Assembly: GCF_029360725.1 (NCBI RefSeq)
Contig: NZ_JARKMY010000001.1
Location: forward strand, 930,001-994,000
Source: Chryseolinea sp. H1M3-3
Lineage (GTDB): Bacteria; Bacteroidota; Bacteroidia; Cytophagales; Cyclobacteriaceae
Direction: 5' to 3'
Length of the DNA: 64,000 nucleotides
Shown here piece by piece: positions 2,462 to 32,229 of the stretch. How positions within the stretch are numbered: position 1 is the first letter of the stretch; the number at the start of each line of letters is the position of its first letter. The notes under the pieces were generated by a model. It did no database searches, was not told where the DNA came from, and saw nothing but the letters and a program-made list of their open reading frames with translations. The position numbers were made by a program, and so were the translations under genes.

Positions 2462-3601
2462 ATGAATAAAATCAAGATGGTAGATTTAGAAAACCAGTAC
2501 GCAACAATTAAAAGTGAAGTTGACGAAGCGATTCAGACTGTTTTAAGATCAACGGCGTTCATTCAGGGGCCCGAGGTACAGGAATTTGCGCAAGAATTGG
2601 CAACATACACGGGAGTAAAATTTGTGATTCCGTGTGCCAATGGAACTGATGCATTGCAGATTGCCATGATGGCGCTTGAATACAAACCTGGCGATGAAAT
2701 TCTATTGCCAGTCCACACCTATGTGGCCACCGCAGAAGTTATCGCTCTACTTGGCTTAACTCCCGTTTTTATTGATGTTGATTGGAATACCTTTAACATT
2801 GATGTGACTCAACTGGAGAAAAAGATCTCAAGTCGGACTGTGGCCATAGTTCCAGTGCATCTCTACGGTCAATGCGCCAATATGGAAATCATTCTGCAGT
2901 TAGCGAAAAAGTATAACCTACATGTAATTGAAGATGCAGCGCAATCATTAAGCGCTGAATATATTTTTAGTAGTGGGGAAAGAAAAAAGTCTGGTACGAT
3001 CGGAACGATAGGTACTACATCTTTTTTTCCATCAAAAAACCTTGGATGTTTTGGAGACGGCGGAGCCCTCTTTACGAATGATGAAATCCTCGCAGAGAGG
3101 ATTCAAATGATTGCTAACCATGGACAGAAAGAGAAATATCATCACGAGGTGATTGGCGTAAATAGTCGCCTCGATACGTTGCAAGCTGCTGTCTTGAAGG
3201 TCAAACTGAAATATCTGGATGACTATTCGCAAAGGAGAATGGACGTCGCGTCCGCGTACGATAGCGCCTTTGGTGAGTTGGAGAACGTTGAAATTCCTGC
3301 GCGATCAGTGTTTTCAACCCATGTTTTCAATCAATATACCCTTAAACTCAAAAGTGATAACCGAGACGACTTTAAAAAATATTTGGCGCAGCATGACATA
3401 CCAACCATGATCTATTATCCTGTCCCTTTACATCTTCAAAAAGCGTTTCGTCGAAATAATACAACCAACGGTTCATTCCCGGTGACCGAAAAACTTTCGA
3501 AAGTGGTAATTTCGCTCCCCATTCATACCGAATTGTCTAATGAACAAATAGAATTCATCTGCCACCGAGTTAAACTTTATTTTAAGAATGATGGAAGGTA
3601 A
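2462..3601 (+). CDS. wbpE: PLP-dependent sugar aminotransferase, WbpE/DegT-like
   Basis: A 379-residue DegT/DnrJ/EryC1/StrS aminotransferase. [14 protein letters not shown] (61-74) binds the cofactor phosphate, IEDAAQS (156-162) holds the Asp that contacts the PLP nitrogen, and [15 protein letters not shown] places the Schiff-base lysine at K192. The FFPSKNLG form, together with the opening KMVDLENQY, is what I recall for WbpE, which aminates the 3-keto UDP-GlcNAc uronic acid using glutamate. It overlaps the following acetyltransferase by 14 bases, matching the WbpE-WbpD pairing of transaminase and N-acetyltransferase. Other 3- or 4-keto sugars remain possible substrates. Confidence 0.85.
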
Positions 3602-4169
3602 AGATTACTATGCCCACGCTACGGCTGTAATTGATGAGGGTTGTGAAATTGGTAAGGGGACAAAGATCTGGCACTTTTCTCACATCATGCCTAACTCTAA
3701 AATTGGTGAAAATTGTAACATAGGCCAAAACGTAGTCATTTCGCCAGATGTCATATTGGGACGAAATGTTAAAGTGCAAAACAACGTCTCCATCTATACT
3801 GGAGTAATTTGTGAGGACGATGTATTTCTTGGGCCCTCGATGGTTTTTACCAACGTGATTAATCCCAGAAGTTCCATTAACCGAAAAAATCAGTATTTAA
3901 AGACTACTGTTAAAAAGGGCGCATCTATCGGCGCAAATGCTACTATTGTGTGTGGGATAGACATCGGAAAATTTGCGTTTATCGGTGCAGGCGCCGTTGT
4001 CACCAAATCTGTGCCTGATTATGCACTTGTGATGGGAAATCCTGCCAGACAATCAGGATGGATGAGTGAGTATGGTCAAAAACTTTTATTTGATAAGAAC
4101 GGCGTAGCAAATTGCAGTGAGAGCAAGGAGACATACCATCTCAAAAATGGTGTCGTCGTTAAAGTGTAA
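3588..4169 (+). CDS. wbpD: UDP-3-amino-sugar N-acetyltransferase, WbpD-like
   Basis: A 193-residue left-handed beta-helix acyltransferase with repeated hexapeptides such as [24 protein letters not shown] and [10 protein letters not shown], the last turns running through [22 protein letters not shown]. WbpD-type enzymes use acetyl-CoA to acetylate the 3-amino group made by WbpE. The KIWHF segment near residue 26 is characteristic of the WbpD/WlbB group. Two tandem ATGs occur at 3588 and 3591; translation is likely coupled to the overlapping wbpE end. It is the only obvious N-acetyltransferase in the locus, so it is also a candidate for acetylating other amino sugars made here. Confidence 0.87.
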
Positions 4170-4308
4170 ACTTCAGTTTTGCGTACAAGTGAAATTAATC
4201 GATTGACAAATATGATAACCTCATACGGGCGGTGGCCATTTTTTTTTAACTTATCGCATTCTGTACTTCTTTTTCAAATTGACTTTAAAACAAGGTCCAA
4301 AAGAAGAC

Positions 4309-5649
4309 ATGGTTAAGTATCTGATAAAGGAAGCCAATAAGTTCGTTAGCATTGAATACAGAAAAATTCTAAAGAACATCGGCTGGCTTTTCTTTGATCG
4401 AGTCTTCCGGATGGGCATGGGATTGGTTGTGGGCGCATGGCTTGCGCGTTACCTTGGCCCGTCTGACTTTGGCACATTCAATTATTTGTTAGCTACCATT
4501 GGTATCTTTATGCCTTTTGCCAGTTTAGGACTTGAAAGCATGATTGTTAAGGAGCTGGTCGAGCACCCTCAACGCATCAGCACTATCATGTCTACCTCAA
4601 TAACGTTGCGCCTATTAGCAGGAATGCTATCCTTTTCTTTATGTGTCGGGATTTTCTTCTTTCTCAAACATGACGATATGCGGACGTTTTACGTTGGAAT
4701 GATCCTGGCCTTGACGCTTTTCGCTCAAGCACTCGTAAGTATGGAATTGTATTATCAGTCACAAGTAGCATCCAAAGTGGCTGTCATTTCACAAAGCATC
4801 GCTTACGTACTTGTAAACATCATAAAGGTTATTCTTATCCTCGTCAAAGCAGAGTTGATGGCATTTGCCGTAGTTACTACCCTGGAGATGGCATTAGGCG
4901 GTTTATTCATGATTGGTGCTTTTAAAAAGATTACAAAGCAGCGGCTCACTTTAATGGTCGACTGGATTTTGGCAAAAAAGCTCCTCTCGAAAGGCTGGCC
5001 GCTTATCTTTTCCGGATTTATGATCATGATCTACATGCGCATAGATCAGATCATGTTGGGTGAAATGATCAATGACTATCAAGTTGGAACGTATTCCGCA
5101 GCCTTGAAGCTTTCAGAAATCTGGTACATCATTCCAACCATCATCTGCAATTCGTTTTTCCCCTCTATTATTGAAGCCAAAAAGCTAGGCGAAGAAACAT
5201 ATTTTCGAAAAATTCAAAACCTGTTTAATATTCTATTTATACTAAGTTTCGTGATAGCGATTGTGGTGACCATTTTTTCAGATCTGATCATACATATTCT
5301 TTATGGCACCCAGTATAAAGATGCCGCCACCATTTTATCGATACACATTTGGACGTCGGTGTTTGTGTTCGTTGGTGTAGGAAGTTCTAGTTTCTTCATT
5401 GTTGAAAATTTACAACTAAAAACTTTTACTAGAACAGCACTAGGCGCAGTCGTAAATATTGGGTTAAACGTAATCCTTATTCCAAAATATTTAGCTGTAG
5501 GCGCCGCTGTAGCAACACTTATTTCCCAGTTCCTCTCTTCTTATGCTTTCGATTTGTTGAGCCCGAAAACCTATGTACTTTTTCGAATGAAAAGCAGGGC
5601 TTTTTTGGCCATTAATTATATATCCCAACTTTTAAAGAAGCGGCAGTAA
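4309..5649 (+). CDS. wzx: Wzx-type polysaccharide flippase (first of two)
   Basis: A multi-pass membrane protein of about 446 residues in the MOP/PST superfamily, which translocates lipid-linked repeat units across the inner membrane. After a polar lead, WLFFDRVFRMGMGLVVG and WLARYLGPSDFGTFNY are the classic N-terminal flippase signature, followed by roughly 12-14 hydrophobic segments. I prefer the ATG at 4309; a TTG at 4279 would add ten residues without any recognisable ribosome site. A 139-base gap separates it from wbpD and holds nothing I recognise. A second flippase lies at 16706, so two different glycans may be exported. Substrate cannot be inferred. Confidence 0.85.
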   Translation: MVKYLIKEANKFVSIEYRKILKNIGWLFFDRVFRMGMGLVVGAWLARYLGPSDFGTFNYLLATIGIFMPFASLGLESMIVKELVEHPQRISTIMSTSITLRLLAGMLSFSLCVGIFFFLKHDDMRTFYVGMILALTLFAQALVSMELYYQSQVASKVAVISQSIAYVLVNIIKVILILVKAELMAFAVVTTLEMALGGLFMIGAFKKITKQRLTLMVDWILAKKLLSKGWPLIFSGFMIMIYMRIDQIMLGEMINDYQVGTYSAALKLSEIWYIIPTIICNSFFPSIIEAKKLGEETYFRKIQNLFNILFILSFVIAIVVTIFSDLIIHILYGTQYKDAATILSIHIWTSVFVFVGVGSSSFFIVENLQLKTFTRTALGAVVNIGLNVILIPKYLAVGAAVATLISQFLSSYAFDLLSPKTYVLFRMKSRAFLAINYISQLLKKRQ

Positions 5650-5762
5650 TTACTAACTTCGCGGCTATATGATGAATAATTCTGTGTTCGGTGAGATTTC
5701 AAGGTTAATGAATATCAGCTTCACGTGTCAAAGTATTGTAGAACGATTATGTATTGTTATAG

Positions 5763-6770
<1,008 letters not shown>

Positions 6771-6882: not shown

Positions 6883-7881
6883 ATGGATTTACTGGGTAAA
6901 AAAGTGCTGATAACAGGCGCAGATGGGTTTATTGGAAGCCATCTGGTTGAACACCTATTAGAAGAAGGTTGTAAGGTCAAAGCGTTTGTCTACTACAATT
7001 CCTTCAATAGCTGGGGATGGCTCGATACCTTTCCTGCGGACAAATTAAAGTTACTTGAGATTTTCGCGGGCGACATACGCGATCCTAACGGTGTCAGAGA
7101 AGCAATGAAAGGAACGGAGGTCGTGTTTCACCTGGCAGCACTGATCGCTATTCCATTCAGTTATCATTCCCCCGATTCATATATAGACACAAACGTAAAG
7201 GGGACATTAAATATCGTTCAAGGCGCGAAAGATCTGGGCATTGAGCGTGTGCTCGTTACATCGACTTCTGAAGTTTATGGAACAGCAACCTACATTCCAA
7301 TTGACGAAAATCATCCGCGCCAACCGCAGTCGCCTTATTCTGCATCGAAGATCGGGGCAGATTGTATAGCCGAGTCATTTTACAGAAGCTTTAACCTACC
7401 CCTAACCATCGTACGACCTTTTAATACATATGGTCCGCGTCAGTCAGCAAGGGCAGTGATCCCTACAATCATATCGCAGTTGCTAAATGGTATGAATGAC
7501 ATTCGACTTGGCGATACCATTCCGACAAGGGATCTACTTTTCGTAAAAGATACTGTGAAGGCATTTGCTGCCATTGCAAAGTCAGATAAGCTCATCGGAC
7601 ATGATTGTAACATCGCGACGCAATCGGAGATATCCGTTGGCGATCTTGCACAGGAGCTTATTAATCAGATAAATCCATCGGCGAAAATTGTTTCCGACAA
7701 TACTCGCATCAGACCAGCTAAGTCGGAAGTGTTCCGGCTGTATGGCTCGAACCAGAAAATAAAGGAGCATACAGATTGGAAACCATTGTATACTTTATCT
7801 CAGGGTTTGACAGAGACGATTGCCTGGTTCAGGCATCCCGATAATCTTAGCAGGTACAAGGCCGATATATATAATATCTAG
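6883..7881 (+). CDS. legB: Nucleotide-GlcNAc 4,6-dehydratase, LegB-like
   Basis: A 332-residue extended SDR. TGADGFIGSH (11-20) binds NAD, TSTSEVYG (126-133) replaces the epimerase Ser with the Thr-Ser-Glu typical of dehydratases, and Y152/K156 form the YxxxK pair. YYNSFNSWGWLD after the third strand is a feature I associate with LegB and related GDP/UDP-GlcNAc 4,6-dehydratases. The enzyme would make the 4-keto-6-deoxy sugar that LegC aminates. It sits two bases before the aminotransferase start, and the following genes complete a legionaminic-acid-type block. A plain 4-epimerase is less likely because of the TSE triad. Confidence 0.85.
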   Translation: MDLLGKKVLITGADGFIGSHLVEHLLEEGCKVKAFVYYNSFNSWGWLDTFPADKLKLLEIFAGDIRDPNGVREAMKGTEVVFHLAALIAIPFSYHSPDSYIDTNVKGTLNIVQGAKDLGIERVLVTSTSEVYGTATYIPIDENHPRQPQSPYSASKIGADCIAESFYRSFNLPLTIVRPFNTYGPRQSARAVIPTIISQLLNGMNDIRLGDTIPTRDLLFVKDTVKAFAAIAKSDKLIGHDCNIATQSEISVGDLAQELINQINPSAKIVSDNTRIRPAKSEVFRLYGSNQKIKEHTDWKPLYTLSQGLTETIAWFRHPDNLSRYKADIYNI

Positions 7882-7882
7882 C

Positions 7883-9037
7883 ATGCAGAAAGTATTTGAG
7901 GATATTTTATCGGTTATCAAGGATGCGTTTCCTGCGCAGGCACTTATTCCGCTACACGCACCAGTGTTTCCCGGCAATGAACGCAAGTATGTGTTGGATG
8001 CAATTGACTCAACGTATGTCTCATCCGTTGGGGCATATGTAAATAAGTTTGAGCGAATGATGTGCGATATTACCGGCGCATCTCACGCAGTGGCGATCGT
8101 TAACGGAACCAATGCATTGCACCTCGCATTGATACTTGCCGGGGTTGTTCGAGAGGATGAAGTACTTTCACAGAGCCTCACGTTCATCGCGACATGCAAT
8201 GCCATCAGTTACCTATCAGCTACGCCAGTCTTTATCGATGTTGATAAAGATACGATTGGGCTATCTGCCGATTCCTTGAGACAGTTTCTCGATAAAAATG
8301 CAAGAATTGGTCAAGATGGATTCTGTTATAACAAGCGTTCAGGAAAACGAATAAAGGCATGTGTGCCCATGCATACATTCGGCTTTCCATGCCGCATTGA
8401 TGAAATTGCACAGATATGTGCTCAATGGAATATCATGCTTGTTGAAGACGCGGCAGAATCGCTCGGAAGTAGTTATAAAGGAAAGCACACCGGTACGTTT
8501 GGAACGTTGGGAACGTTCAGCTTCAACGGAAACAAGACGGTGACCTGCGGCGGTGGTGGGGCCATCGTCACTAACGACGAGAATCTTGCTCGTCGGGCAA
8601 AACATTTAAGCACACAGGCTAAGGTTCCCCATGCATGGGAATTCGTACATGATGAAGTCGGTTTCAACTACCGGATGCCAAACTTGAATGCTGCCCTTGC
8701 ATGCGCGCAGTTGGAGGAACTCAATTCCTTTGTGTCGAACAAAAGAGATCTTGCGCAACTTTATCATCGGAAATTCAAATCGCTTAAATTGTCAATCCTT
8801 GAGGAAATAACCGGCTCAAAATCCAACTACTGGTTAAATGGAATATTTTTTGAAAACAGGCATCAGCGGGATGAATTTTTAACGTATTCGAATGAAAATG
8901 GAGTTATGACGAGACCCGTGTGGGAGCTGATGCATCGACTCAAAATGTTTTCTGGTGGCCACAATGCGCCTTTGCCGAATAGTGAATGGATAGCAGACAG
9001 GCTGGTAAATATTCCAAGCAGCGTAAGGATGGAGTAA
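7883..9037 (+). CDS. legC: 4-amino-sugar aminotransferase, LegC-like
   Basis: A 384-residue PLP aminotransferase of the LegC branch. LIPLHAPVFPGNERKYV near the N-terminus, NGTNALHLAL for cofactor phosphate binding, VEDAAES with the PLP-contacting Asp (D189), and SFNGNKTVTCGGGGA with Schiff-base K218 are all present. It should aminate C4 of the LegB product. I chose ATG 7883, two bases after the legB stop, over an upstream in-frame start at 7820 that would overlap legB and lacks family support. In known Leg pathways the next gene is often the acetyltransferase LegH; here only 42 bases separate it from the synthase gene. Confidence 0.88.
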   Translation: MQKVFEDILSVIKDAFPAQALIPLHAPVFPGNERKYVLDAIDSTYVSSVGAYVNKFERMMCDITGASHAVAIVNGTNALHLALILAGVVREDEVLSQSLTFIATCNAISYLSATPVFIDVDKDTIGLSADSLRQFLDKNARIGQDGFCYNKRSGKRIKACVPMHTFGFPCRIDEIAQICAQWNIMLVEDAAESLGSSYKGKHTGTFGTLGTFSFNGNKTVTCGGGGAIVTNDENLARRAKHLSTQAKVPHAWEFVHDEVGFNYRMPNLNAALACAQLEELNSFVSNKRDLAQLYHRKFKSLKLSILEEITGSKSNYWLNGIFFENRHQRDEFLTYSNENGVMTRPVWELMHRLKMFSGGHNAPLPNSEWIADRLVNIPSSVRME

Positions 9038-9079
9038 TAAAGGCTGAAGTAAAGTTTAAGTATAAATTTTCAAATAGTA

Positions 9080-10105
9080 ATGAATGCGCGTGTCATGATA
9101 ATTGCTGAGGCTGGTGTGAACCATAATGGTTCACTTGAAACAGCCCGAAGCCTGATAGATGCTGCATGCGATGCGGGTGCAGACTTTGTAAAATTTCAAA
9201 CTTTTAGGGCTGAGAAGCTGGTTAGCAAGAACGCAAGAAAAGCTGCGTATCAGCAAAAGAATATGGCAGATACAGGAAGCACGCAATTCGACATGCTTCG
9301 AAAGCTTGAACTGTCTGAAGATGATCATTTCAAACTCAGAGATTATGCCAACCAACGGCGCATCAAATTTTTCTCTACCGCGTTTGATGAAGATGGCCTG
9401 GATTTCCTCTATGCCCTCGGTATTGCTATTTTCAAAATACCTTCCGGAGAAATAACCAATCTTCCCTACCTCAAAAAAATAGCCAGCAAAAAAAAACCAA
9501 CCATTCTTTCAACAGGAATGGCAACACTTGGCGAGATTGAATCCGCGCTGGCCGTACTGCTCACAAATGGACTGCAGAGAAATCAAATAACGGTATTGCA
9601 TTGCAACACTGAGTATCCGACACCTTTTTCGGATGTGAATCTCAAAGCAATGAACACGATCGCGCAGGCATTCCACGTAAAAGTCGGCTACTCTGATCAT
9701 ACTACGGGAATTGAAGTACCCATTGCAGCCGTTGCCCTGGGGGCGACCTGCATTGAGAAGCATTTTACCCTGAGCCGGGATATGGAAGGCCCCGATCATA
9801 AGGCTTCATTAGAGCCTGAAGAATTAAAAGCCATGGTAACAGCCATCCGGAATATTGAAAAGGCGATCAGTGGCTCCGGCTTGAAAGAACCGTCACCTTC
9901 AGAAATAAAGAATAAGGAAGTTGCACGCAAAAGCATTCACCTGAAAAAGGATCTTCCGCAGGGCCATATCTTAAGAGAAGCGGATCTTATCATGAAAAGA
10001 CCGGGAAATGGCATCAGTCCAATGAACATTCCCATGGTTCTGGGGAAAAAGGTTAGTCAGGATCTTCCATCCGATACAATGCTTGCGTTCAACCATCTCA
10101 GCTGA
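9080..10105 (+). CDS. legI: Nonulosonic acid synthase (legionaminate/neuraminate synthase), NeuB/LegI family
   Basis: A 341-residue NeuB-family synthase that condenses a 6-deoxy or N-acetyl mannosamine-type sugar with phosphoenolpyruvate to give a nine-carbon acid. IAEAGVNHNG (8-17), FVKFQTFRAEKLVS, FKIPSGEITNLPYL, STGMATLGEIE and VGYSDHTTG are the barrel motifs; the C-terminal part from about residue 285 (ARKSIHLKKDLPQGHILREADL) is the SAF antifreeze-like domain. Which acid is made depends on the precursor; LegB/LegC/PtmE-like neighbours favour a legionaminic-type product over sialic acid. Adjacent genes overlap or nearly so. Confidence 0.9.
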   Translation: MNARVMIIAEAGVNHNGSLETARSLIDAACDAGADFVKFQTFRAEKLVSKNARKAAYQQKNMADTGSTQFDMLRKLELSEDDHFKLRDYANQRRIKFFSTAFDEDGLDFLYALGIAIFKIPSGEITNLPYLKKIASKKKPTILSTGMATLGEIESALAVLLTNGLQRNQITVLHCNTEYPTPFSDVNLKAMNTIAQAFHVKVGYSDHTTGIEVPIAAVALGATCIEKHFTLSRDMEGPDHKASLEPEELKAMVTAIRNIEKAISGSGLKEPSPSEIKNKEVARKSIHLKKDLPQGHILREADLIMKRPGNGISPMNIPMVLGKKVSQDLPSDTMLAFNHLS

Positions 10106-10106
10106 T

Positions 10107-11213
10107 ATGAAACGAATTGGAATTCTGACAAGTTCTCGCGCTGATTATGGTATATACTACCCGTTACTGAAGAAGCTTCAATCAGATTCCTTTTTTTCTT
10201 TATCAGTTATCGCATTTGGAACTCACCTCTCGGCTAAATTTGGTCATACTGTTGATAGGATAAAAGAGGATGGATTTATAGTAACCCATGAACTGGATAC
10301 AATGCCTCCGAATGATTCTCCTGAGGGCGTTAGTATAGCAATGGGAAAAACCATACTCGCGTTTTCCTCCCTGTGGGTCAAAGAGAAATTCGATGTGGTC
10401 CTTTGTCTTGGAGACCGTTACGAAATATTTGCAGCGTGTGCCAGCTCAATTCCTTATAACGTAAAACTTGCACACCTTCATGGCGGGGAAGAAACCCTTG
10501 GCGCGATAGACGACTGTCTCCGACACTCCATTACCCATATGTCTACAATTCACTTTACTGTTGCTGAGCCGTACCGCCAGCGGGTTGTAGCATTAAAAGG
10601 TTCTGATAAAAATGTTTTCAATACCGGTTCCCTTAGTATTGACAATCTTAAACACCTCAAGCTGTTTACAATTGAGGAGTTTAAAAAGCAGTTTAATATT
10701 GATCTTTCAATACCAACGATACTCATCACGTTTCATCCTGAAACCGTATCGTATGAAAAAAACGATTGGTATGTCAACGAGCTGGTTGGCGCTCTGGAAG
10801 AATTAACCTCGTACCAGCTTGTGATTACGATGCCAAATGCCGACACGATGGGTAATGTAATAAGGGAAAAGCTGAACCAATTTATTGGAAGATCAGCGAA
10901 CGCAATTGGTGTTGAGTCGTTTGGAATGCTGGGGTATTTAAGCTGCATGAAACACTGCAGCCTTATGCTCGGAAACACTTCAAGCGGTTACGTTGAAGCT
11001 TCATTCTTCCCGAAGTATGTGATTGACCTCGGAACGAGGCAGAATGGAAGAATAGTCACTGAAAACATTCGGAAGTGTGACATCGAAAAAACTGCGATAC
11101 TAAAAGCTGTTAATGCCTATTCCTATATACAACTTCCATCGAAAATCGATATCTATGGGAGCGGCGAATCCTCAGACTATATCGTTAAAATATTAAAGGA
11201 AAAGAATGATTGA
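10107..11213 (+). CDS. legG: Hydrolysing nucleotide-sugar 2-epimerase, NeuC/LegG-like
   Basis: A 368-residue GT-B-fold UDP/GDP-GlcNAc 2-epimerase of the hydrolysing branch. The opening RIGILTSSRADYGIYYPLL is the NeuC/LegG signature; LGDRYEI, AHLHGGEETLGAIDD, TFHPET and GNTSSGYVEA follow in the usual order. It releases the nucleotide while inverting C2 and hands the free sugar to LegI. I chose ATG 10107, one base after the legI stop; a TTG at 10083 would place eight extra residues inside legI. It overlaps the next gene by 8 bases. The order synthase-epimerase-nucleotidyltransferase-cytidylyltransferase matches nonulosonate operons. Confidence 0.9.
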   Translation: MKRIGILTSSRADYGIYYPLLKKLQSDSFFSLSVIAFGTHLSAKFGHTVDRIKEDGFIVTHELDTMPPNDSPEGVSIAMGKTILAFSSLWVKEKFDVVLCLGDRYEIFAACASSIPYNVKLAHLHGGEETLGAIDDCLRHSITHMSTIHFTVAEPYRQRVVALKGSDKNVFNTGSLSIDNLKHLKLFTIEEFKKQFNIDLSIPTILITFHPETVSYEKNDWYVNELVGALEELTSYQLVITMPNADTMGNVIREKLNQFIGRSANAIGVESFGMLGYLSCMKHCSLMLGNTSSGYVEASFFPKYVIDLGTRQNGRIVTENIRKCDIEKTAILKAVNAYSYIQLPSKIDIYGSGESSDYIVKILKEKND

Positions 11214-12249
11214 TATTGTTAGCCATACCATTCACCATAATAGCACGGTCACCGACGCATTCGTGCAGATGGACAATTTAGGTCAAGACCTCACGCTATT
11301 TGTTGTAGACGACGATAACCGGCTAATGGGCACCTTGACTGACGGAGATATCCGCAGAGGATTGATCAAAAGACTCGGCTTGCTCGACAAAGTCGAGCTT
11401 TTTATGTTTCGCAATTGCAGCTATGTAACTAAAAATAATTTTACCGTTCAGGACGTTGCCAACATCAAGCGGAAGGGAGTGCTGCTTTTGCCAGTTCTTG
11501 ATGAGGATAAAAAAATTGTAAAAATAGTTAACCTCAGCACCACGCAAACCATACTTCCCCTGGATGTGGTCGTGATGGCCGGTGGAGAGGGCAAACGGCT
11601 TAGACCGCTTACTGAAAGAACGCCGAAACCTTTACTCAAAGTTGGAGATAAGCCAATTATCGAACACAACCTTGATCGACTTATTCATTTTGGAATTGAT
11701 GACTATTGGATTTGTATCCGATATCTCGGAAAGCAATTGGAACAATACTTTGGTAATGGCGCGTCCAAAAACATATCGATCAACTTCATCTGGGAAGATC
11801 AACCTCTTGGAACAATAGGTGCTATACGGAAGATCCAAAACTTCAAGCACGACTATATTTTGGTCACCAATTCCGATTTGCTGACCAACCTGGATTACGA
11901 AGCCTTCTTGGTTGATTTTATTAACAATGGCGCTGATTTTTCAGTTGCGACCATTCCCTATTCGGTTAATATTCCCTACGCAGTTTTGGACACTGCAAAT
12001 GGCCATGTTGTCAGCTTCAAGGAAAAACCTACCTACACTTATTATTCCAATGCTGGAATTTATCTGATGCGAAAGGAAGTAATTGAACAGATCCCGGACG
12101 GTTTCTATAACGCAACTGATCTGATGGAGAAACTGATTCAGAAAGGACGCAAAGTGATTTCCTATCCGATTATTGGCTACTGGATTGACGTTGGAAATCC
12201 GCAAGACTACGCTAAGGCAAATCAGGACATAAAACATCTGAAGTTTTGA
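11206..12249 (+). CDS. ptmE: CBS-domain sugar-1-phosphate nucleotidyltransferase, PtmE-like
   Basis: A 347-residue fusion: a CBS pair in residues 1-110 (DDDNRLMGTLTDGDIRRGL and VLLLPVLDEDKKI are visible) followed by a nucleotidyltransferase domain beginning VVMAGGEGKRLRPLTERTPKPLL. This arrangement is that of Campylobacter PtmE, a glucosamine-1-phosphate guanylyltransferase that starts the GDP-linked legionaminic pathway. TNSDLLTNLDY and YWIDVGNPQDY complete the transferase domain. CBS pairs bind adenine nucleotides, so activity may respond to energy state. Overlaps both neighbours (8 and 4 bases). Its presence argues that LegB, LegC and LegG use GDP-sugars, but that is inference. Confidence 0.85.
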   Translation: MIDIVSHTIHHNSTVTDAFVQMDNLGQDLTLFVVDDDNRLMGTLTDGDIRRGLIKRLGLLDKVELFMFRNCSYVTKNNFTVQDVANIKRKGVLLLPVLDEDKKIVKIVNLSTTQTILPLDVVVMAGGEGKRLRPLTERTPKPLLKVGDKPIIEHNLDRLIHFGIDDYWICIRYLGKQLEQYFGNGASKNISINFIWEDQPLGTIGAIRKIQNFKHDYILVTNSDLLTNLDYEAFLVDFINNGADFSVATIPYSVNIPYAVLDTANGHVVSFKEKPTYTYYSNAGIYLMRKEVIEQIPDGFYNATDLMEKLIQKGRKVISYPIIGYWIDVGNPQDYAKANQDIKHLKF

Positions 12250-12941
12250 AATTCCTTGCATTAATTCCTGCGCGTGGAGGTTCTAAGGGTATTCCCCAAA
12301 AAAACATTAAACCCTTTTTCGGCAAGCCGCTGATTAGCTACTCCATTGATCTCGCCAGAAAATTTTTACCTGACGAAGATATATGTGTTTCGACTGACGA
12401 CAGCGAAACAATCAAAGTAGTGGAAGCTTGCCATCTTCAAGTTCCATTTGTAAGGCCGCATTCGTTGGCTGGCGATGACGCTGGAATGTATGAAGTGGTT
12501 TTACATGCGCTTGATTTTTATGCACAAAAGGATAAGATGTACGATGCGGTAATACTTCTGCAGCCAACTTCACCCCTTCGTTCCGAGCAGTCATTGCGGG
12601 AGGCAATTACCTTATACAATCCTGAAGTTGACATGGTGGTTTCAGTTAAGAAAACTTTGGCCAACCCCTATTTCAAGCTTTATGAGGAAGATCAGCAAGG
12701 TTTTTTAGTGAAGTCAAAATCGGGAGATTTTAAGACGAGGCAGGAAGCTCCTGACGTTTGGGAATTAAATGGTGCGATTTACATTTACAACGTTGCAGCC
12801 CTGGGCCGTTCCTCACCATCCGGATTTAAGAAAGTTCGGAAGTATGTAATGAATGAGATCGAGTCTATAGATATCGACACTCCAATGGACTGGGCGTTAG
12901 CAGAATTTCTAAAACAAAAACAAATCGATGAAAGAAGATAG
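12246..12941 (+). CDS. legF: CMP-nonulosonate cytidylyltransferase, LegF/NeuA-like
   Basis: A 231-residue cytidylyltransferase that activates the nonulosonic acid with CTP. LIPARGGSKGIPQKNIK (6-22) is the nucleotide-binding signature, LLQPTSPLRS and WELNGAIYIYN follow, and IDIDTPMDW near residue 215 carries the metal-binding Asp pair. Translation appears to start at a TTG (12246) inside a TTGA that overlaps the preceding stop by four bases, which is characteristic of coupled translation. No better start was seen. It completes the Leg-type block. Overlaps the next ORF by 14 bases. Confidence 0.9.
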   Translation: MKFLALIPARGGSKGIPQKNIKPFFGKPLISYSIDLARKFLPDEDICVSTDDSETIKVVEACHLQVPFVRPHSLAGDDAGMYEVVLHALDFYAQKDKMYDAVILLQPTSPLRSEQSLREAITLYNPEVDMVVSVKKTLANPYFKLYEEDQQGFLVKSKSGDFKTRQEAPDVWELNGAIYIYNVAALGRSSPSGFKKVRKYVMNEIESIDIDTPMDWALAEFLKQKQIDERR

Positions 12942-14316
12942 TCCAACTGTATATATTGTACACCACATCGATACGGAAGGCCCTTTGCATGAGCCTATGC
13001 AGGAAGTATTTAAACGTATTGAAACCATCCTTGGTGTTTCCCTCAATCTCTTTCCGTCTCCGCAAAATCTAAAAAAAATACAGGCAGGCCAACTTGAAAA
13101 TGTGAGCAATTCAATTGCAGATGCTGCGAGGGCCATTGCAGACCCGCATCTTCTGGGATTCAAATCCTCATGGTCGGAGGTAGACGAAATGTTGTACAGG
13201 ATGATGAGTAAAGATTATCGGAATTCCCTGCGTGATTCTTTTGGAAATGGCTGGATCTATAACTGGCATATTTTAGATCATGTTGGATTTGTCACCAACG
13301 AACGACGGCGGGACCTTGGGTATCTCAATATCTTTAATCACTACGAGCAAATCCTGAAGGAAACTGATTCTGCTCAGGATGAGCTTCATTGGCATTTTCA
13401 TCCACTGCCGTTTTTCAGAGAAGCACATATTCCTGCCACGAGTTATGATAACTCTTTTTATGAACTGCATCAAGTGATGTGCCGACGCCTCATTGAAAAA
13501 CATTGGTTTCCCAGAATAAACCGTGCCGGATTTCACACCGTACGTCCAGACTCCAATTTCTTCCTTGAACAATGGATTCCTTTTGACGCATCGAATCAAA
13601 GTATGATCGAAGAAAACGAGCAGGTGCAGAAGGATGCGATCAATGGGAGATTTGGAGACTGGAAGGGAGCACCTTCAGACTGGTCTGTTTACCACCCAGA
13701 TCTTTACGACTGGAGAAAACCTGGAGATTTGAAAAGAGTAATTGCCAAATGTCTTAATCTCAAAACACGTTTTAGAAATATTAGTCAGAATGAGTTAGAA
13801 ATTGCGTTCAGTAAGGCGCAGCGCGAGAATTCCGGAGTTTATGTGGGGGTGACTAACCATGATTTCCGCGAGATGTCAGTCGAGATCGAGGCGTTCTATC
13901 AGCTACTTTCAAATGTCGCAAAAAATTATCCAGATGTAAAGTTTCAGTTCAGTGGCGCTCTTGGTGCATTCCGAAATGTACTCGGATATTCATCCACGGA
14001 AATTCGAAAAAATAGAATAATGATTGAAGCTGAAATAAATGAGGAGGTGCTTAAAGTTGAAGTGGTAAATGGTGCCCTCTTTGGAAGTCAGCCATACTTG
14101 GCACTGAAAAGCAGTACCGGGACATACTGGCACGACAATTTTGACTTCGGCAAACCGGGAAAAGAATTTTTCTACACTTTCGATAGGAACACTATTACGT
14201 TAGATGCGCTAAGTACGATTGCGATTGCTGCCAATGACAAATACGGTAATACATCAATTGTAGAAATTCAGCTCGCTAACGCGTCCGTAAAAAGTAACAA
14301 ACCCTATCAACAATAA
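12928..14316 (+). CDS. Uncharacterised NodB-fold-like protein coupled to the nonulosonate operon
   Basis: A 462-residue protein that I cannot assign to a characterised family. Early residues HHIDTEG (12-18) look like the metal-binding first motif of carbohydrate esterase 4/NodB proteins; HWHFHP (154-159) could supply the His pair; GFHTVRPDSNFFLE (201-214) resembles the Arg-Pro motif; and NHDFREM (310-316) may close the site. Residues from about 361 to 455 are strand-rich without Cys and look like a beta-sandwich domain. There is no signal peptide or membrane segment, so a cytoplasmic role is likely. It overlaps legF by 14 bases and is the last gene before a convergent methyltransferase. It may deacylate or otherwise process the nonulosonate or a linked sugar. 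A distant WbmS-like relation is possible but untested. Confidence 0.6.
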   Translation: MKEDSPTVYIVHHIDTEGPLHEPMQEVFKRIETILGVSLNLFPSPQNLKKIQAGQLENVSNSIADAARAIADPHLLGFKSSWSEVDEMLYRMMSKDYRNSLRDSFGNGWIYNWHILDHVGFVTNERRRDLGYLNIFNHYEQILKETDSAQDELHWHFHPLPFFREAHIPATSYDNSFYELHQVMCRRLIEKHWFPRINRAGFHTVRPDSNFFLEQWIPFDASNQSMIEENEQVQKDAINGRFGDWKGAPSDWSVYHPDLYDWRKPGDLKRVIAKCLNLKTRFRNISQNELEIAFSKAQRENSGVYVGVTNHDFREMSVEIEAFYQLLSNVAKNYPDVKFQFSGALGAFRNVLGYSSTEIRKNRIMIEAEINEEVLKVEVVNGALFGSQPYLALKSSTGTYWHDNFDFGKPGKEFFYTFDRNTITLDALSTIAIAANDKYGNTSIVEIQLANASVKSNKPYQQ

Positions 14317-14326
14317 GGGTCGCTGA

Positions 14327-15154
14327 TTATTTTTTAGATGTGCCTGGGTTATCGGCGTCGAACGACTTTCGGAAATAACCCAGAACGTCAGTTCCAAACC
14401 CTTCGCATTCTGCTTTGGCCCTCGCTGTTACTGAATATTCATCCCACCATTGTGTGACACTGGCGCCCGAGGGCTCTGTTACTTTCTTGAGAATTGCTAC
14501 AAATTCATAAAACGAGTTCGATTGAATTTCCTTCAGATCATTCAACGGCTGATTCAATCCAAGGTCGCCCCGTTTTGAAAAATGGAATTTTCGTTCAATG
14601 GTAAAGCCAAGCAACGGTAGGGCTTGCATAAGCAATTCAAGATCGATAAATCTGTTCGGGAAATTTTTAAGTTTTGCATTACGTTCGGCAACGTAAGCCA
14701 GGCAATCGGAGTCCGGATAATGCGCACCTTTGGCCGTAAAAAGGAACTTGCCACCGGTCTTTAGGATCCTGTTCGTTTCTTTCAAACATTCTATCTGGTC
14801 GACAATATCGAATACCCCCCACGCCACTACATGATTAAAAAAGTTGGACGGGAACGCCAGCTTTTCGGCCTGACCAACTATGGCGATCACGTATGGGTTC
14901 TTAATCGCTTCGTTGACAACCTGAAGGTCGACATCAGCGCCAAATATCTGCTTTGTATAGTTGGCAAATACCGGATATAACCTTCCATAACTGCATCCCA
15001 GATCCAGCAACCGGTCATTGGGATTGACGCCTAAAAGATTTACGTAGTGATTGCATACATTAAGCCCAGGTATAACTGTGCCATCAAGGGATTTATCAAC
15101 CGCTTTTCGAAAATACTCATAGTACTCGACGCCAAATTCAAATTTTTCATTCAT
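14327..15154 (-). CDS. Class I SAM-dependent methyltransferase
   Basis: A 275-residue methyltransferase on the opposite strand to the rest of the locus. LLDLGCSYGRLYP (49-61) is motif I of the Rossmann-fold methyltransferases, VFDIVDQIECLKETNRILKTGGKFLFTAKG covers the later motifs. Its 3' end is ten bases from the end of the preceding + strand gene, so the two are convergent, and its start faces the next + strand gene across 125 bases. The acceptor is unknown; O-methylation of a glycan residue is a reasonable inference from context. The reversal suggests separate acquisition or its own promoter. The revcomp of 15155-15180 has a TAACTTTA element that is one base off the TAnnTTTG consensus. Confidence 0.8.
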   Translation of the reverse strand: MNEKFEFGVEYYEYFRKAVDKSLDGTVIPGLNVCNHYVNLLGVNPNDRLLDLGCSYGRLYPVFANYTKQIFGADVDLQVVNEAIKNPYVIAIVGQAEKLAFPSNFFNHVVAWGVFDIVDQIECLKETNRILKTGGKFLFTAKGAHYPDSDCLAYVAERNAKLKNFPNRFIDLELLMQALPLLGFTIERKFHFSKRGDLGLNQPLNDLKEIQSNSFYEFVAILKKVTEPSGASVTQWWDEYSVTARAKAECEGFGTDVLGYFRKSFDADNPGTSKK

Positions 15155-18528: not shown

Positions 18529-19137
18529 ATGATCCAAATAATTAACTATGGACTTGGAAATCTAGGCTCTGTCCAAAATATGCTCAAAAGAATAAACATT
18601 ACGAGCGTAATTGTTAAAAGCCCTAAAGATTTAGTCCCGGAAAAGATCATTCTGCCTGGCGTTGGATCTTTTGATACAGGTATGCAAAATCTTTTAAATG
18701 ACGGGTGGATTGAAGCCTTAAATGAAAAGGTGTATAAAGACAAAGTTCCAGTTCTAGGAATTTGCTTAGGGATGCAGTTAATGACAAACAGGAGCGACGA
18801 AGGGCACTTAGCAGGCCTGGGCTGGATTGATGGCGAAGTATTAAAATTTCAGGGGAATGGTCTCAAAATTCCTCACATGGGATGGAACATCGTGAGGCCG
18901 TCAACCGAGGATGTTTCTATTCTTCGCAGCGACAAGAGCGAATTGCGTTTTTATTTTGTGCATTCTTATTTTGTTAGTGTTAAGAATCATTCCGATCAGC
19001 TCGGGGTCACGCGATATGGAAATGACTTTACGTCTGTTTTTCGTCGGGAGAATATCTACGGGGTCCAATTTCATCCTGAAAAGAGCCATAAATTTGGAAT
19101 GATGCTTCTTAAAAATTTTGCTTCTGTCAAATGCTGA
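18529..19137 (+). CDS. hisH2: HisH-like glutaminase subunit of an amidotransferase (HisH2/WbpX role)
   Basis: A 202-residue class I glutamine amidotransferase resembling HisH. The catalytic triad is complete: C79 in GICLGMQL, and H182 and E184 in QFHPEKS. ILPGVGSFDTGM near residue 41 is also typical. In histidine biosynthesis it would feed ammonia to HisF, but here it lies next to a HisF paralogue and a WbpG-like amidotransferase, away from any other his gene. The likely job is to supply ammonia for formation of an acetamidino group on a surface sugar, as described for the HisH2-HisF2-WbpG set. It overlaps hisF2 by 7 bases. Confidence 0.88.
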   Translation: MIQIINYGLGNLGSVQNMLKRINITSVIVKSPKDLVPEKIILPGVGSFDTGMQNLLNDGWIEALNEKVYKDKVPVLGICLGMQLMTNRSDEGHLAGLGWIDGEVLKFQGNGLKIPHMGWNIVRPSTEDVSILRSDKSELRFYFVHSYFVSVKNHSDQLGVTRYGNDFTSVFRRENIYGVQFHPEKSHKFGMMLLKNFASVKC

Positions 19138-19892
19138 AAATCAGAATAATTCCATGTTTGCTATTGCATGATGGTGGCTTAGTGAAAACCGAAAAATTTA
19201 AGAATCCGAAATATGTGGGTGATCCTATTAATGCCGTCAGGATTTTTAACGAAAAGGAGGTAGACGAGCTTATTTTTTTGGATATAGATGCTTCCAAACA
19301 TAATCGCGAGCCAAATTTAAGCATCATTGATGATTTGGCATCCGAGTGCTTTATGCCATTTGCTTATGGCGGGGGGATAACTACTCTAAAACAAATTCAG
19401 CACATCCTTAAAATTGGTGTGGAAAAGGTTATTATCAACTATTCTGCCTTAACGGATGTTAATTTTGTAAAAGAAGCCAGCAAACATTTTGGCAGCTCTA
19501 CGATAATCGTAGCGTTGGATATAAAAAAGGATTTATGGGGAAATTATAAGGTGTTTAATCATGTTAGGCAGAAAACTGAAAAAATAGGTCCGCAAGAACA
19601 TGCGCAAAGAATTTGTGACGCCGGAGCAGGAGAATTATTCATCAATAATGTTGACCGAGATGGTACTTATTTAGGGTTCGATTTGCCCATTTTGGAGGCC
19701 ATCAATAAAACCGTATCCGTTCCTGTAATTGCCTGCGGAGGCGCCTCACGTCTGGCAGACCTGAAAGAAGTGGTTGCTAAAACCAACGTTTCAGCAGTCG
19801 CTGCTGGTAGTTTATTTGTTTATCAAGGCCCACATCGTGCTGTGTTGATATCTTACCCGTCTCAAGAGGAACTTAAACAGTTATTTTCCTAG
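19131..19892 (+). CDS. hisF2: HisF-like subunit of a sugar amidotransferase (HisF2)
   Basis: A 253-residue TIM barrel of the HisF family. It begins MLKIRIIPCLLLHDGGLVKT: the residue at the position of catalytic Asp11 of true HisF is Leu, while the Asp at position 130 (VALD) is kept, as are FAYGGGI (77-83) and NNVDRDGT. Loss of Asp11 argues against cyclase activity in histidine synthesis and fits the paralogue that channels ammonia in glycan amidine formation. It overlaps hisH2 by 7 bases, so the pair is probably translated together, and wbpG follows 29 bases later. Confidence 0.88.
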   Translation: MLKIRIIPCLLLHDGGLVKTEKFKNPKYVGDPINAVRIFNEKEVDELIFLDIDASKHNREPNLSIIDDLASECFMPFAYGGGITTLKQIQHILKIGVEKVIINYSALTDVNFVKEASKHFGSSTIIVALDIKKDLWGNYKVFNHVRQKTEKIGPQEHAQRICDAGAGELFINNVDRDGTYLGFDLPILEAINKTVSVPVIACGGASRLADLKEVVAKTNVSAVAAGSLFVYQGPHRAVLISYPSQEELKQLFS

Positions 19893-19909
19893 TTTCGATG
19901 TTACTTTAT

Positions 19910-19917
19910 TAGTTTTG
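19910..19917 (+). promoter_or_regulatory. TAnnTTTG element before wbpG
   Basis: The octamer TAGTTTTG matches the Bacteroidota -7 consensus TAnnTTTG. It ends four bases before the ATG of the wbpG-like gene at 19922, so a transcript started here would be nearly leaderless. No clear TTTG lies 19-21 bases upstream, so this may be a chance match. Confidence 0.3.
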
Positions 19918-19921
19918 CGTC

Positions 19922-21040
19922 ATGAATAAGACTTTTCAAAGGTGTGTCCGCTGTGTGATTGACACAACCGATCCAGATATCAGATTTGACAATGAAGGTG
20001 TTTGCAATTATTGCCGGGAGGCTGAGAAGGAACTGCCCAAATATCGATTTACCCCTGATCAAGAGAAGAAAAATCTTGATCGTATTTCCCAGCAAATACA
20101 GAAAGAGGCTAAGGGTAAATATCATGCCATTGTAGGATTAAGTGGTGGTGTGGATAGTTCATATGTTACTCATCTGTCGAAGTCCATGAATTTAAATCCG
20201 TTGATTGTTCATTTTGATAATGGTTGGAATTCAGAGAAGTCTGTCTCCAACATTAAAAAAATCGTCGACAAGTGTGGATTTGATCTAGAAACATATGTTA
20301 TTAATTGGCCTGAGTTCAAGGATTTGCAGCGTTCTTTTTTTAAGGCAGGAGTCGTTGATATTGAAATATTAAGTGACCATGCTATCATGGCAACAATGTT
20401 CAAATTGCGGAGGAAGCATAACATAAAATTTGTTCTTTCAGGGAGCAACTATGTAACGGAACATGGCATGCCATTAGGCTGGCTTTGGCGTAAACAAGAT
20501 TTGACAAACATAAAAGCCATACAAAAGCAGTTTGGCACAAAACCCCTAAAGGAGTTCCCTACGCTGAGTTCTGTTGAATTTCAAATGATAAAAATGTTTG
20601 GATGGGGTGGCGTTTATATAGAGCTATTAAATCATATTAATTATTCAAAAAAGAGAGCTCTGGAAATCCTTATTGAAAAGTATGGTTGGGAATATTATGG
20701 TGGTAAGCATTATGAGTCTACTTTCACCAAATTTTATCAGGCTTTTGTTTTGCCTCAGAAATTCGGATACGACAAGCGCAAAGTTCACTTATCGGCTTTA
20801 ATTCGAAATAATGAAATTACCCGGGAAGAAGCCTTGAAAGAGTTGGAGAAGCCGTCATATGATCCACAGGAACTAAAAATCGATAAGGAATATGTACTTA
20901 AAAAACTCGGTTTTACTGAACAGCAATTTGACCAAATGATGAGTGAAAAACCAAAGAAGCATCTGGATTATCCGAGCGATGAATGGGTCTTTAAGATTTG
21001 GAGAAAGTTTAAGCCACACCTCGTCAAACTACCTTCATAA
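19922..21040 (+). CDS. wbpG: N-acetyl sugar amidotransferase, WbpG/PseA-like
   Basis: A 372-residue ATP-dependent amidotransferase. An N-terminal zinc-finger-like set of Cys is at C8, C11, C28 and C31 (CVRC and CNYC), and the ATP pyrophosphatase P-loop VGLSGGVDSSYVTHL spans 71-85. These are the marks of the PseA/WbpG/LegA family, which makes acetamidino groups (C(=NH)CH3) on sugars such as pseudaminic or legionaminic acid or ManNAc3NAcA. With hisH2 and hisF2 directly upstream the ammonia source is supplied. Two targets are available here: the WbpABED uronic acid and the Leg-type nonulosonate. The TAA overlaps the next ATG by one base. Confidence 0.9.
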   Translation: MNKTFQRCVRCVIDTTDPDIRFDNEGVCNYCREAEKELPKYRFTPDQEKKNLDRISQQIQKEAKGKYHAIVGLSGGVDSSYVTHLSKSMNLNPLIVHFDNGWNSEKSVSNIKKIVDKCGFDLETYVINWPEFKDLQRSFFKAGVVDIEILSDHAIMATMFKLRRKHNIKFVLSGSNYVTEHGMPLGWLWRKQDLTNIKAIQKQFGTKPLKEFPTLSSVEFQMIKMFGWGGVYIELLNHINYSKKRALEILIEKYGWEYYGGKHYESTFTKFYQAFVLPQKFGYDKRKVHLSALIRNNEITREEALKELEKPSYDPQELKIDKEYVLKKLGFTEQQFDQMMSEKPKKHLDYPSDEWVFKIWRKFKPHLVKLPS

Positions 21041-30453: not shown

Positions 30454-31445
30454 ATGACAATTTCAAAAAAACAATTTCATTTGTAATTCCTGTTTACAAT
30501 GAAGCAGAGAATCTTGGATTGCTTCATAAAGAACTCTGCTCAACGTTATTTGATTTGCCTTATGTCTACGAATTTATTTTCGTTGATGATGGTAGTGCTG
30601 ACGATTCCTTGGCAATAATTAAAAGGCTTACTGAAAAGGATTCAAATATATTTTACATTGAACTTTCCAGGAACTTTGGTCACCAACATGCATTGAAAGC
30701 CGGAATGGATATAGCGCAGGGCGATTGTGTAATTTCCATGGATTGTGACTTACAGCATCCGCCTCAAGTTGTGAGGCAATTGATTGCAAAATGGGAAGAA
30801 GGTTTTGACATCGTGTATACCCGGCGAAAGGAGGACAAAAAACTGCCAAGAATAAAAAGAAAAACATCATCGCTCTTTTATGCTTTGTTGAATAAAATAT
30901 CAGACATGAAACTTGAAAATGGAACAGCCGATTTTCGGTTGGTCAATCGACACGTATTAAAGGCTTTTTCACATTTGAATGAAAATGAACTTTTCATTCG
31001 TGGACTGATCAAATGGGCAGGTTTTCGACAGTTCGCTATTGACTATTACCCGCGTGAGCGTTATGCGGGTGAAAGTAAATATGATTTTAGGAAAATGCTG
31101 TCATTTGCTTTTCGGGGAATTACTTCGTTCAGTGTTAAACCTTTAAAACTCATCGCATATCTAGGTATATTGCTTTTCTTAATTTCGATGGTCCTTGTTC
31201 CATATGCGCTGATTAGTTATTTCATAGGCAAAGCAGTTTCAGGCTGGACATCCCTAATGATCTCAATTATTTTTTTTGGTAGCTTACAACTTTTAATGAT
31301 AGGTATAATTGGTTTATATCTTGGCAAACTTGTGATCCAGGCAAAACAACGACCGCTCTATTTTATTCGAGATACCAATTACAGTTCTAATGCAGCCAGC
31401 AATTTGGAAAGACCCAATCATGAAGAAAGTACTTCTCTCTTTTGA
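30450..31445 (+). CDS. ArnC/GtrB-like polyprenyl-phosphate glycosyltransferase (GT2)
   Basis: A 331-residue GT2 enzyme of the DPM1/ArnC/GtrB branch. SFVIPVYNEAENL near residue 10, FVDDGSADDSL (49-59), and MDCDLQHPP (95-103) are visible. TADFRLVNR and YYPRERYAGESKYDFRKM are the membrane-proximal motifs, followed by two transmembrane helices (around 231-250 and 268-292). Such enzymes transfer a sugar to undecaprenyl phosphate on the cytosolic side. It is coupled to both the GT-C gene upstream (ATGA overlap) and the NodB gene downstream (26-base overlap). Confidence 0.87.
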   Translation: MNDNFKKTISFVIPVYNEAENLGLLHKELCSTLFDLPYVYEFIFVDDGSADDSLAIIKRLTEKDSNIFYIELSRNFGHQHALKAGMDIAQGDCVISMDCDLQHPPQVVRQLIAKWEEGFDIVYTRRKEDKKLPRIKRKTSSLFYALLNKISDMKLENGTADFRLVNRHVLKAFSHLNENELFIRGLIKWAGFRQFAIDYYPRERYAGESKYDFRKMLSFAFRGITSFSVKPLKLIAYLGILLFLISMVLVPYALISYFIGKAVSGWTSLMISIIFFGSLQLLMIGIIGLYLGKLVIQAKQRPLYFIRDTNYSSNAASNLERPNHEESTSLF

Positions 31446-32229
31446 TATTGAAGAATTTGATATGCCATTGGAGTATGGAAAGTCCATCCCACTCGAAGAG
31501 CAAATTCGTATTTCAAAAGAAGGTACTAGGGTTATTTTGGATATTCTCCATAGAAATAAAATTCGAGCTACCTTCTTCAGTACGGTTGTATTTGCATCAC
31601 ATGCCCCCGAGTTAATTGATCGCTTGGTTAATGAAGGCCATGAACTTGCATCCCACGGATATTTTCATTCGCAGTTCCAAAATAAACATTTATTAGAATC
31701 TAGAGATCAGCTTCAAAAACTATCGGGAAAGCGTGTGGATGGTTTTAGAATGCCCCGCATGATGCCCGTAAATGATCAAGAAATTAAAAAAGCAGGATAC
31801 AAGTACAACTCGTCGTTAAACCCTGTATACTTACCCGGACGATATAATAATTTTTTTAAGCCCCGAATAATATTCAAATCAAATGAAGTATTTCAATTGC
31901 CTGCCTCGGCTACACCGATCATTCGGCTTCCATTATTTTGGTTATCATTTCACAATTTGCCCCTCTGGTTGTATAAGTCGGCGTGTCTTTGGACAATAAA
32001 TCGAGACTTATATCTCAACATTTATTTTCATCCATGGGAATTTATAAATCTTGCCAAGTCCAACTATGGTCTTCCGAAAATCGTAACGAGGAAAACTGGC
32101 GCTAAAATGGCTGTGAGATTTTCCCATTTAATTGACTGGATGAAAAGCCGTAAATACGGCTTTTCAACGATAAAGGACTTTTTGCTTTATGATTTATACA
32201 TATATAAGGTTGGGAACGACATACATTGA
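31420..32229 (+). CDS. NodB-type polysaccharide deacetylase
   Basis: A 269-residue member of carbohydrate esterase family 4 (NodB/ArnD/NaxD). LLSFDIEEFD (5-14) is motif 1 with Asp and Glu; HELASHGYFH holds the metal-binding H-x3-H; GFRMPRM resembles the RxxP motif; and NIYFHPWEF near residue 200 supplies the late His. I chose ATG 31420 (MKKVLLSF), inside the end of the GT2 gene; an upstream ATG at 31390 would add ten residues from the overlap. The neighbour order GT-C, GT2, deacetylase resembles Arn and FlmF2/NaxD/FlmK systems, where the deacetylase trims an acyl group from a polyprenyl-phosphate sugar. Confidence 0.8.
   Translation: MKKVLLSFDIEEFDMPLEYGKSIPLEEQIRISKEGTRVILDILHRNKIRATFFSTVVFASHAPELIDRLVNEGHELASHGYFHSQFQNKHLLESRDQLQKLSGKRVDGFRMPRMMPVNDQEIKKAGYKYNSSLNPVYLPGRYNNFFKPRIIFKSNEVFQLPASATPIIRLPLFWLSFHNLPLWLYKSACLWTINRDLYLNIYFHPWEFINLAKSNYGLPKIVTRKTGAKMAVRFSHLIDWMKSRKYGFSTIKDFLLYDLYIYKVGNDIH

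Follow-up and report, generated by a model that had tools for sequence, protein, structure and literature searches.

We describe a family of proteins represented by gene X, at 12928..14316 on the + strand of the window, that is, of the whole 64,000-nucleotide stretch of Chryseolinea sp. H1M3-3 DNA analysed here. Genes of this family lie beside nonulosonic acid (NulO) genes in several phyla, their products keep a common set of conserved residues, and in most cases one subfamily of methyltransferase is encoded in the same cluster. X starts with ATG and encodes an uncharacterised protein of 462 residues, for which our preferred reading, held at somewhat less than an even chance, is an N-deacylase that works in the cytosol, depends on a metal and acts on a legionaminic-type NulO or its CMP form, with a barrel of divergent NodB-superfamily type followed by a beta-sandwich at the C-terminus; its metal binding, its substrate, the position of the acyl group and the order of the steps are what we infer from the evidence below. 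Nonulosonic acids are found on flagella, capsules and O-antigens, where charge and recognition depend on their N-acyl groups, and in the usual routes the C5 nitrogen stays acetylated or becomes acetamidino. If the proposal is true, a dedicated N-deacylase would explain the origin of other C5 substituents, and X would be a genetic marker for a class of sugars that could be sought by mass spectrometry. Among the papers listed in literature searches on NulO deacylases and N-acyl change, none has a title that points to an enzyme of NodB type in NulO synthesis; what is new here is a family without a Pfam or NCBIfam model and, as far as these titles go, without a described NulO enzyme of its fold.

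The genes upstream of X, all on the + strand, stand in the order legB (4,6-dehydratase, 6883..7881, TIGR04180), legC (LegC-family aminotransferase, 7820..9037, TIGR04181), legI/neuB (nonulosonate synthase, 9080..10105, TIGR03569), legG/neuC (2-epimerase/hydrolase, 10083..11213, TIGR03568), a ptmE-like gene (11206..12249) and legF (12246..12941). The first four match their models above cut-off; the ptmE-like gene has no model above cut-off, and we take it to be a ptmE/legX-type sugar-1-phosphate nucleotidyltransferase. For legF, a neuA-type CMP-NulO synthetase, the best NCBIfam model is PseF at E 3e-43, which is below cut-off, so that the name legF rests on context. The ATG of X lies inside the end of legF, and the two genes overlap by 14 bases (12928-12941); both this overlap and the 462-residue reading frame had been noticed in the initial annotation and agree with the coordinates. 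Downstream and convergent with X is the SAM-dependent methyltransferase gene MT (14327..15154, - strand), whose opposite orientation means that it is not co-transcribed with X in the window. No LegH-type acetyltransferase adjoins legC (7820-10105); hexapeptide-type acyltransferase frames were seen by eye in the clusters of five other X loci (L004, L007, L008, L010 and L040), and the one in L010 has its best relative in the host genome on another contig (C6), at 36% identity. An acetamidino-forming set, with hisH-like and hisF-like genes and an N-acetyl sugar amidotransferase, lies beside the Leg cluster at 18529-21040 (+); the amidotransferase (19922-21037, +) is of the PtmG type, with TIGR03573 above cut-off. 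The types LegB, C, I, G, F, PtmE and PtmG are represented by other genes of the window, and X matches no NCBIfam model.

X cannot be a chance reading frame, since proteins 40-58% identical to it over most of its length are encoded in eight other genomes. A single-sequence scan of genome contigs gave nine loci (L002-L010) with 40-59% identity to X, from Bacteroidetes/Bacteroidia, Holosporaceae, Roseovarius, Gemmatimonadetes, Treponema socranskii, Kaiserbacteria, Taylorbacteria and an unplaced metagenome-assembled genome (MAG); relatives of X, at 29-58% identity, are sparse, yet occur in several phyla. No Pfam match was obtained for X, for nine members scanned or for the further relatives L040 (genome G358) and L044 (G1167); the hits of X to LPD16 (0.06) and WWE (0.19) were rejected as noise. 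There was likewise no NCBIfam match to the members scanned and no match of X to PDB sequences, by single sequence or by profile, and X-family genes would therefore read as hypothetical. With regard to carbohydrate esterase family 4 (CE4), PF01522 matched neither X, nor the nine members, nor L040 and L044, and a search of the host genome with PF01522 found nine other loci and none at X; judged by sequence, X is not a member of this family. One PF01522 protein is an ordinary polysaccharide deacetylase encoded separately in the same surface-polysaccharide region of the window (31390-32229, +; E 8.5e-14 at 31465-31764), which has no profile match to X. Neither X nor MT was found in the viral contigs and plasmids searched.

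NulO genes of the neuB, neuC or neuA type occur near X, within the stretch read, in all ten other loci that could be judged (L003-L010, L040 and L044). The window itself was excluded from this count, as was L002, where 175 bases separate the start of X from the end of the contig. Six loci (L004, L005, L006, L008, L010 and L044) have neuB, neuC and neuA; L007 has neuB and neuC, L040 neuB and neuA, L003 neuA and ptmE, and L009 neuA alone. Such linkage is not due to chance, since a stretch of 16 kb makes up, by a crude estimate, some 0.4% of a genome of 4 Mb. X adjoins or overlaps the neuA-type gene in the window, L004 and L005, and in these three and L008 it stands among sugar or sugar-nucleotide genes. 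Co-occurrence with legF across Bacteroidota had been put forward as a check of the initial annotation; the linkage stands, in a different form, as X is linked to NulO clusters generally and over several phyla, and its cytosolic form was found in at least two of 296 genomes of the host's phylum.

The spread of the family was surveyed by an X profile in several phyla and classes, with matches taken at E up to 0.001; most genomes with X are MAGs and may be incomplete, and the counts for the phyla of the host and of Treponema and for the class of Roseovarius are lower bounds. In the host's phylum, where at most five first-look candidates were scored per genome, at least 13 of 296 genomes matched: two with the cytosolic form (the host and G358), ten with a longer form and one weakly. 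At least two of 247 genomes matched in the phylum of Treponema (its own genome and a weak match in G463, E 2.7e-4), at least one of 337 in the class of Roseovarius (Roseovarius itself) and two of 332 in the phylum of Kaiserbacteria (its own genome and G1167). A single-sequence search of 98 genomes, made up of the host and its relatives, found X in the host alone. The class-level draws, which overlap in part with the genomes of the phylum surveys, gave five matches among 175 genomes in the class of G358 (G358, three longer forms and one contig-end fragment from the genus of G358) and 17 among 178 in the class of G163, where the matches lie in long open frames and are, judging by length, of the longer form. 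A tree was built from 12 X and four longer proteins; L044 and the longer forms sit on long branches in it, and L010 entered with a partial sequence. The cytosolic and the longer form separate in this tree, and the host phyla are mixed: Taylorbacteria and Roseovarius join at 100/99, and the window falls with Holosporaceae, Kaiserbacteria and Bacteroidota MAGs in a group of six at 100/100. This mixing of host phyla suggests horizontal transfer. The X gene of L010 (7980-9336) is split over two reading frames, being either a broken gene or an assembly error, and owing to this interruption it was left out of the A1 alignment and of the count of conserved positions below.

The longer form comprises 21 proteins (L013-L022, L048-L049 and L051-L059) of 604-960 residues in the frames read, which match X from about column 77-88 on. 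Golvesin_C and T9SS sorting domains were found in both of the proteins scanned, whose X-like domain has no Pfam name; the branch is apparently exported, by likeness as regards the proteins beyond these two. The weak L023 was left out of this set, and so was L050 (G1400, of the genus of G358), a 96-residue contig-end frame that is possibly of the cytosolic form. Like X, the longer proteins have the catalytic and the beta domain; they differ in their length, in the Golvesin_C and T9SS domains of the two scanned and in their surroundings, as no leg gene match was found in three genomic regions read around longer-form genes. X itself opens straight into its first strand, with no start that looks like a signal peptide by eye, and is apparently a soluble protein that looks cytosolic.

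Counting as kept any position found in at least 10 of 11 X proteins and at least 80% of the 21 longer ones, the two branches have 29 positions in common, and 14 of these (D15, G18, R98, W113, D151, H156, H158, R199, G201, W245, P257, G266, A297 and H311) are the same in all 32. The initial annotation had proposed a CE4-like metal site at three motifs, HHIDTEG (residues 12-18), HWHFHP (154-159) and RPDSNFF (206-212). In the nine aligned X (the window and eight others), H12, D15, E17, G18, P19, H156, H158 and R206-N210 are invariant; H154, the first histidine of HWHFHP, is a histidine in just three of the nine, the RPDSN stretch is altered in L040 and L044, and both this stretch and E17 are absent from the 29 kept positions.

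The order of the kept residues is that of the NodB superfamily, namely an acid, His-x-His, Arg, Trp and a final His. The motif-1-like acid site would be D15-T-E17-G18-P19 (12970..12984, +) at the end of strand 1, where all 11 X and all 21 exported proteins have D15 and G18, and E17 and P19 are invariant in the nine aligned X only. The motif-2-like putative metal histidines H156-x-H158 (13393..13401, +), at the end of a strand, are kept in all 11 and all 21. R199-x-G201, followed by R206PDSNFF212 (13522..13563, +), may correspond to motif 3 in a region of low model confidence; R199 and G201 are in 32 of 32, and R206-N210 is invariant only in the nine aligned X. D244-W245 (13657..13662, +) is motif-4-like, with W245 in every protein of both branches and D244 in 10 of 11 X and 18 of 21 exported proteins, and H311 (13858..13860, +), again at the end of a strand, would be the motif-5-like histidine, kept in 11 of 11 and 21 of 21. 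NodB has five motifs, with the spacing Hx3H in motif 2. Unlike NodB and CE4, X has H-x-H in motif 2, its own C-terminal domain and no Pfam or PF01522 match; a helical insert at about 25-75 is missing from L044 and from the exported sequences displayed. The D-x-E form of motif 1 is visible too in the PF01522 protein at 31390.

The predicted structure points in the same direction. AlphaFold2 model 1 (9 rows; pLDDT 73.8, pTM 0.75) has a NodB-superfamily-like catalytic domain followed by a C-terminal beta domain, and is weak at 119-127, 160-175 and 200-246, the last of which includes motif 3. Its best VIA-align match is 3lm3, annotated as 'putative glycoside hydrolase/deacetylase', with Z 9.5 and an rmsd of 4.1 over 228 residues between model positions 5 and 354; the next row (Z 7.3) is an Ig-like match to the C-terminal domain, and the catalytic part is also aligned by amylopullulanase 7e1y (6.8) and PelA 9cgy (6.8). 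The strand-rich C-terminal domain of the initial annotation is reproduced in the model, with strands from residue 365 on, as a predicted beta-sandwich of residues 358-453 (13999..14286, +), Ig/FN3-like by fold. Model 2, of the catalytic part alone, is poorer (pLDDT 59.5); its top 17 rows, at Z 5.4-7.2, are seven distinct proteins (11 of the rows being Golgi mannosidase II), among them polysaccharide, chitin and chito-oligosaccharide deacetylases, PuuE allantoinase and NDST1, all of which we take to be members of the glycoside hydrolase/deacetylase superfamily, and rows 5-17 are level, to within 1 Z, with the lactonase/phosphotriesterase barrels that follow (row 18 on, at most 5.3). Single Z values of this size mean little, and it is the agreement of the two models that carries weight. 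Foldseek gave no match at E < 0.001 for either model, model 1 being judged by the best 50 of 1563 matches, which are dominated by FN3/Ig-like and other beta proteins; with model 2, PuuE 3cl6 comes first at E 0.36, amid unrelated rows. By hhalign, X against seven ordinary NodB proteins of its own genome scored a non-significant 16.8, and X with the exported branch 19.7 against the same seven, four unrelated control families giving 12.9-22.2; the best local piece sets DELHWHFHP opposite the NodB HxxxH motif, which is suggestive only. Profile comparison of X with GH57 and with the D-x-E protein L064 gave no match.

The (beta/alpha) barrel of the superfamily is therefore predicted for X with moderate strength, in likeness to NodB/CE4, GH38 and GH57 (3lm3, 1z7a and 3cl6), and the membership of X in the broad glycoside hydrolase/deacetylase superfamily as a divergent member is supported, not proven. 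As to the CE4-like metal site, the earlier suggestion is supported in part, by the conserved acid and histidines in the right order and the NodB-like predicted fold; X is not recognisable as CE4 or PF01522. The low model confidence, the want of a significant profile match and the phosphotriesterase-type barrels close behind for model 2 could also mean that X has a role in binding or as a scaffold, or that it is an enzyme with an unrelated fold such as an amidohydrolase-type barrel; this we consider unlikely, as polar residues are kept in two branches and 3lm3 is well clear of the other rows. The Golgi mannosidase II and amylopullulanase matches, together with exported relatives, from which the domain would seem able to work on glycans outside the cell, would suit a GH57/GH38-like glycosidase or other polysaccharide-directed enzyme working on a NulO-containing lipid-linked oligosaccharide, but X looks cytosolic and sits with sugar and sugar-nucleotide genes in the window, L004, L005 and L008, and we give this reading, too, a low probability.

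For the N-deacylase that we favour, a divalent metal would, by analogy with motifs 1 and 2, be held by D15, H156 and H158, joined by E17 in the cytosolic branch, R199 (motif 3) and D244/W245 (motif 4) would shape the pocket, and H311 (motif 5) would be the general acid. X would then act around the CMP-activation step and take off an N-acyl group, probably the N-acetyl that C5 retains from GlcNAc, and the exposed amine would be modified, by MT in most X clusters and perhaps by a formyltransferase in some. Removal of an N-acyl group is the simplest reading in view of the CMP-NulO synthetase neighbour, the cytosolic location, the frequent methyltransferase and the formyltransferases in two clusters; amide hydrolysis is also the reaction that deacetylases of the superfamily commonly catalyse. 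C5 rather than C7 is a guess, favoured because the C5 acetyl comes fixed from GlcNAc, whereas the LegH step allows a choice of acyl at C7. N-acyl remodelling genes are indeed present in two X clusters: in L004 a formyltransferase and a PIG-L deacetylase gene are adjacent within the NulO cluster (3025-4577), a pair that suggests exchange of N-acetyl for N-formyl, and in L005 there is a formyltransferase (13079-13930). Against the reading count the PIG-L deacetylase that L004 already has, the absence of E17 from the residues kept in the exported branch, the altered RPDSN of L040 and L044, HxH in place of Hx3H, the low model confidence around motif 3, the X genomes that lack MT and the absence of a significant profile or Foldseek match. 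The fold and linkage evidence would also fit an O-deacylase (esterase) that trims O-acetyl from NulO or CMP-NulO, and the superfamily has ester-cleaving members too; in the loci read, no O-acetyltransferase stood out by eye as regularly adjoining X, and we give this a low probability. We put just as low a cleavage of some other C-N bond or a ring opening in NulO tailoring, PuuE/allantoinase-like and directed at an amidine, a lactam or a longer N-acyl group: PuuE 3cl6 (Z 6.9) ties with the top row of model 2 besides heading its Foldseek list, and amidotransferase-like and hisH-like genes are in the cluster of the window, L006 and L009, but seven of ten X genomes gave no match to the amidotransferase of the window.

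MT (METHYLTRANSFERASE) is the partner of X in the sense that the same subfamily is encoded in the X cluster of eight of the 11 other X genomes (L003, L004, L005, L006, L007, L009, L010 and L044), or nine of 12 with the window. It was not found in G388 (L002) or in G394 (T. socranskii), and G358 gave a generic match only; an obligate partnership was rejected, as T. socranskii and G358 have X without MT. The nine MT proteins have a characteristic C-terminal region in common. The matches of MT in NCBIfam and the PDB are assorted SAM methyltransferases, the best being a phosphoethanolamine N-methyltransferase, at profile positions 37-150 only. With an MT profile at E up to 1e-20, a threshold set to exclude generic methyltransferases, and at most nine first-look candidates scored per genome, at least one of 296 genomes of the host's phylum matched, the match being the host, so MT is no general NulO gene there; no MT-bearing genome without X was found. 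Pairwise distances of X and MT correlate best among six gene pairs (r 0.36, with 118 of 5000 permutations as high), compared with r 0.29 (649 of 5000) for X and NeuB and r 0.14 (1033 of 5000) for X and NeuA; with nine taxa, this is weak support for the association. It is conceivable, and rather unlikely in our judgement, that X and MT are a two-enzyme module spread across phyla by horizontal transfer, which takes the N-acetyl group off a CMP-legionaminic-type sugar and methylates the amine so exposed, to yield a class of zwitterionic or N-methyl nonulosonic acids not yet described.

The nearest known systems resemble these clusters in part. As far as the accessible parts of the two reports go, PtmG and PtmH tailor legionaminic acid by an acetamidino and then an N-methyl step, PtmH being the acetamidino N-methyltransferase (PMC3766260, PMC13317340); X and MT would resemble them as a set for late tailoring within a Leg cluster that includes a methyltransferase, but neither enzyme described there is a deacylase. 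Unlike that pathway, seven of the ten other X genomes have no match to a PtmG-type gene and three have one, so MT is probably not always an acetamidino N-methyltransferase. A role of X in the acetamidino step was rejected on the same count, which concerns MAGs in which a divergent amidotransferase could be missed. That remodelling at C5 exists is shown by Leg5GluNMe7Ac of a Clostridium, with a non-acetyl C5 substituent, in the available portion of PMC13317340. Already known, from what could be consulted of PMC7874193, is a 'deacetylase' gene in Aeromonas flagellin glycosylation islands, where it is found with pse genes and methyltransferase genes; these islands are like the X clusters in having a gene of that name beside NulO genes, but belong to the pseudaminic acid pathway. 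The polysaccharide deacetylase of PMC3628348 is from an outer-core locus, not a NulO one.

Other genes near X were also noted. Neither MT nor the exported branch had been listed in the initial annotation. Amidotransferase-like and hisH-like matches are near X in L006 and L009, and a hisF match in L009. Two proteins that by eye resemble B12-dependent radical SAM enzymes are encoded near the NulO genes of L044 (7586-9199 and 17693-19375), one of them adjoining X. The X/MT cluster of L009 has a sulfotransferase-family gene (4887-5948), and a gene that looks similar by eye lies between X and MT in L007 (5764-6759).
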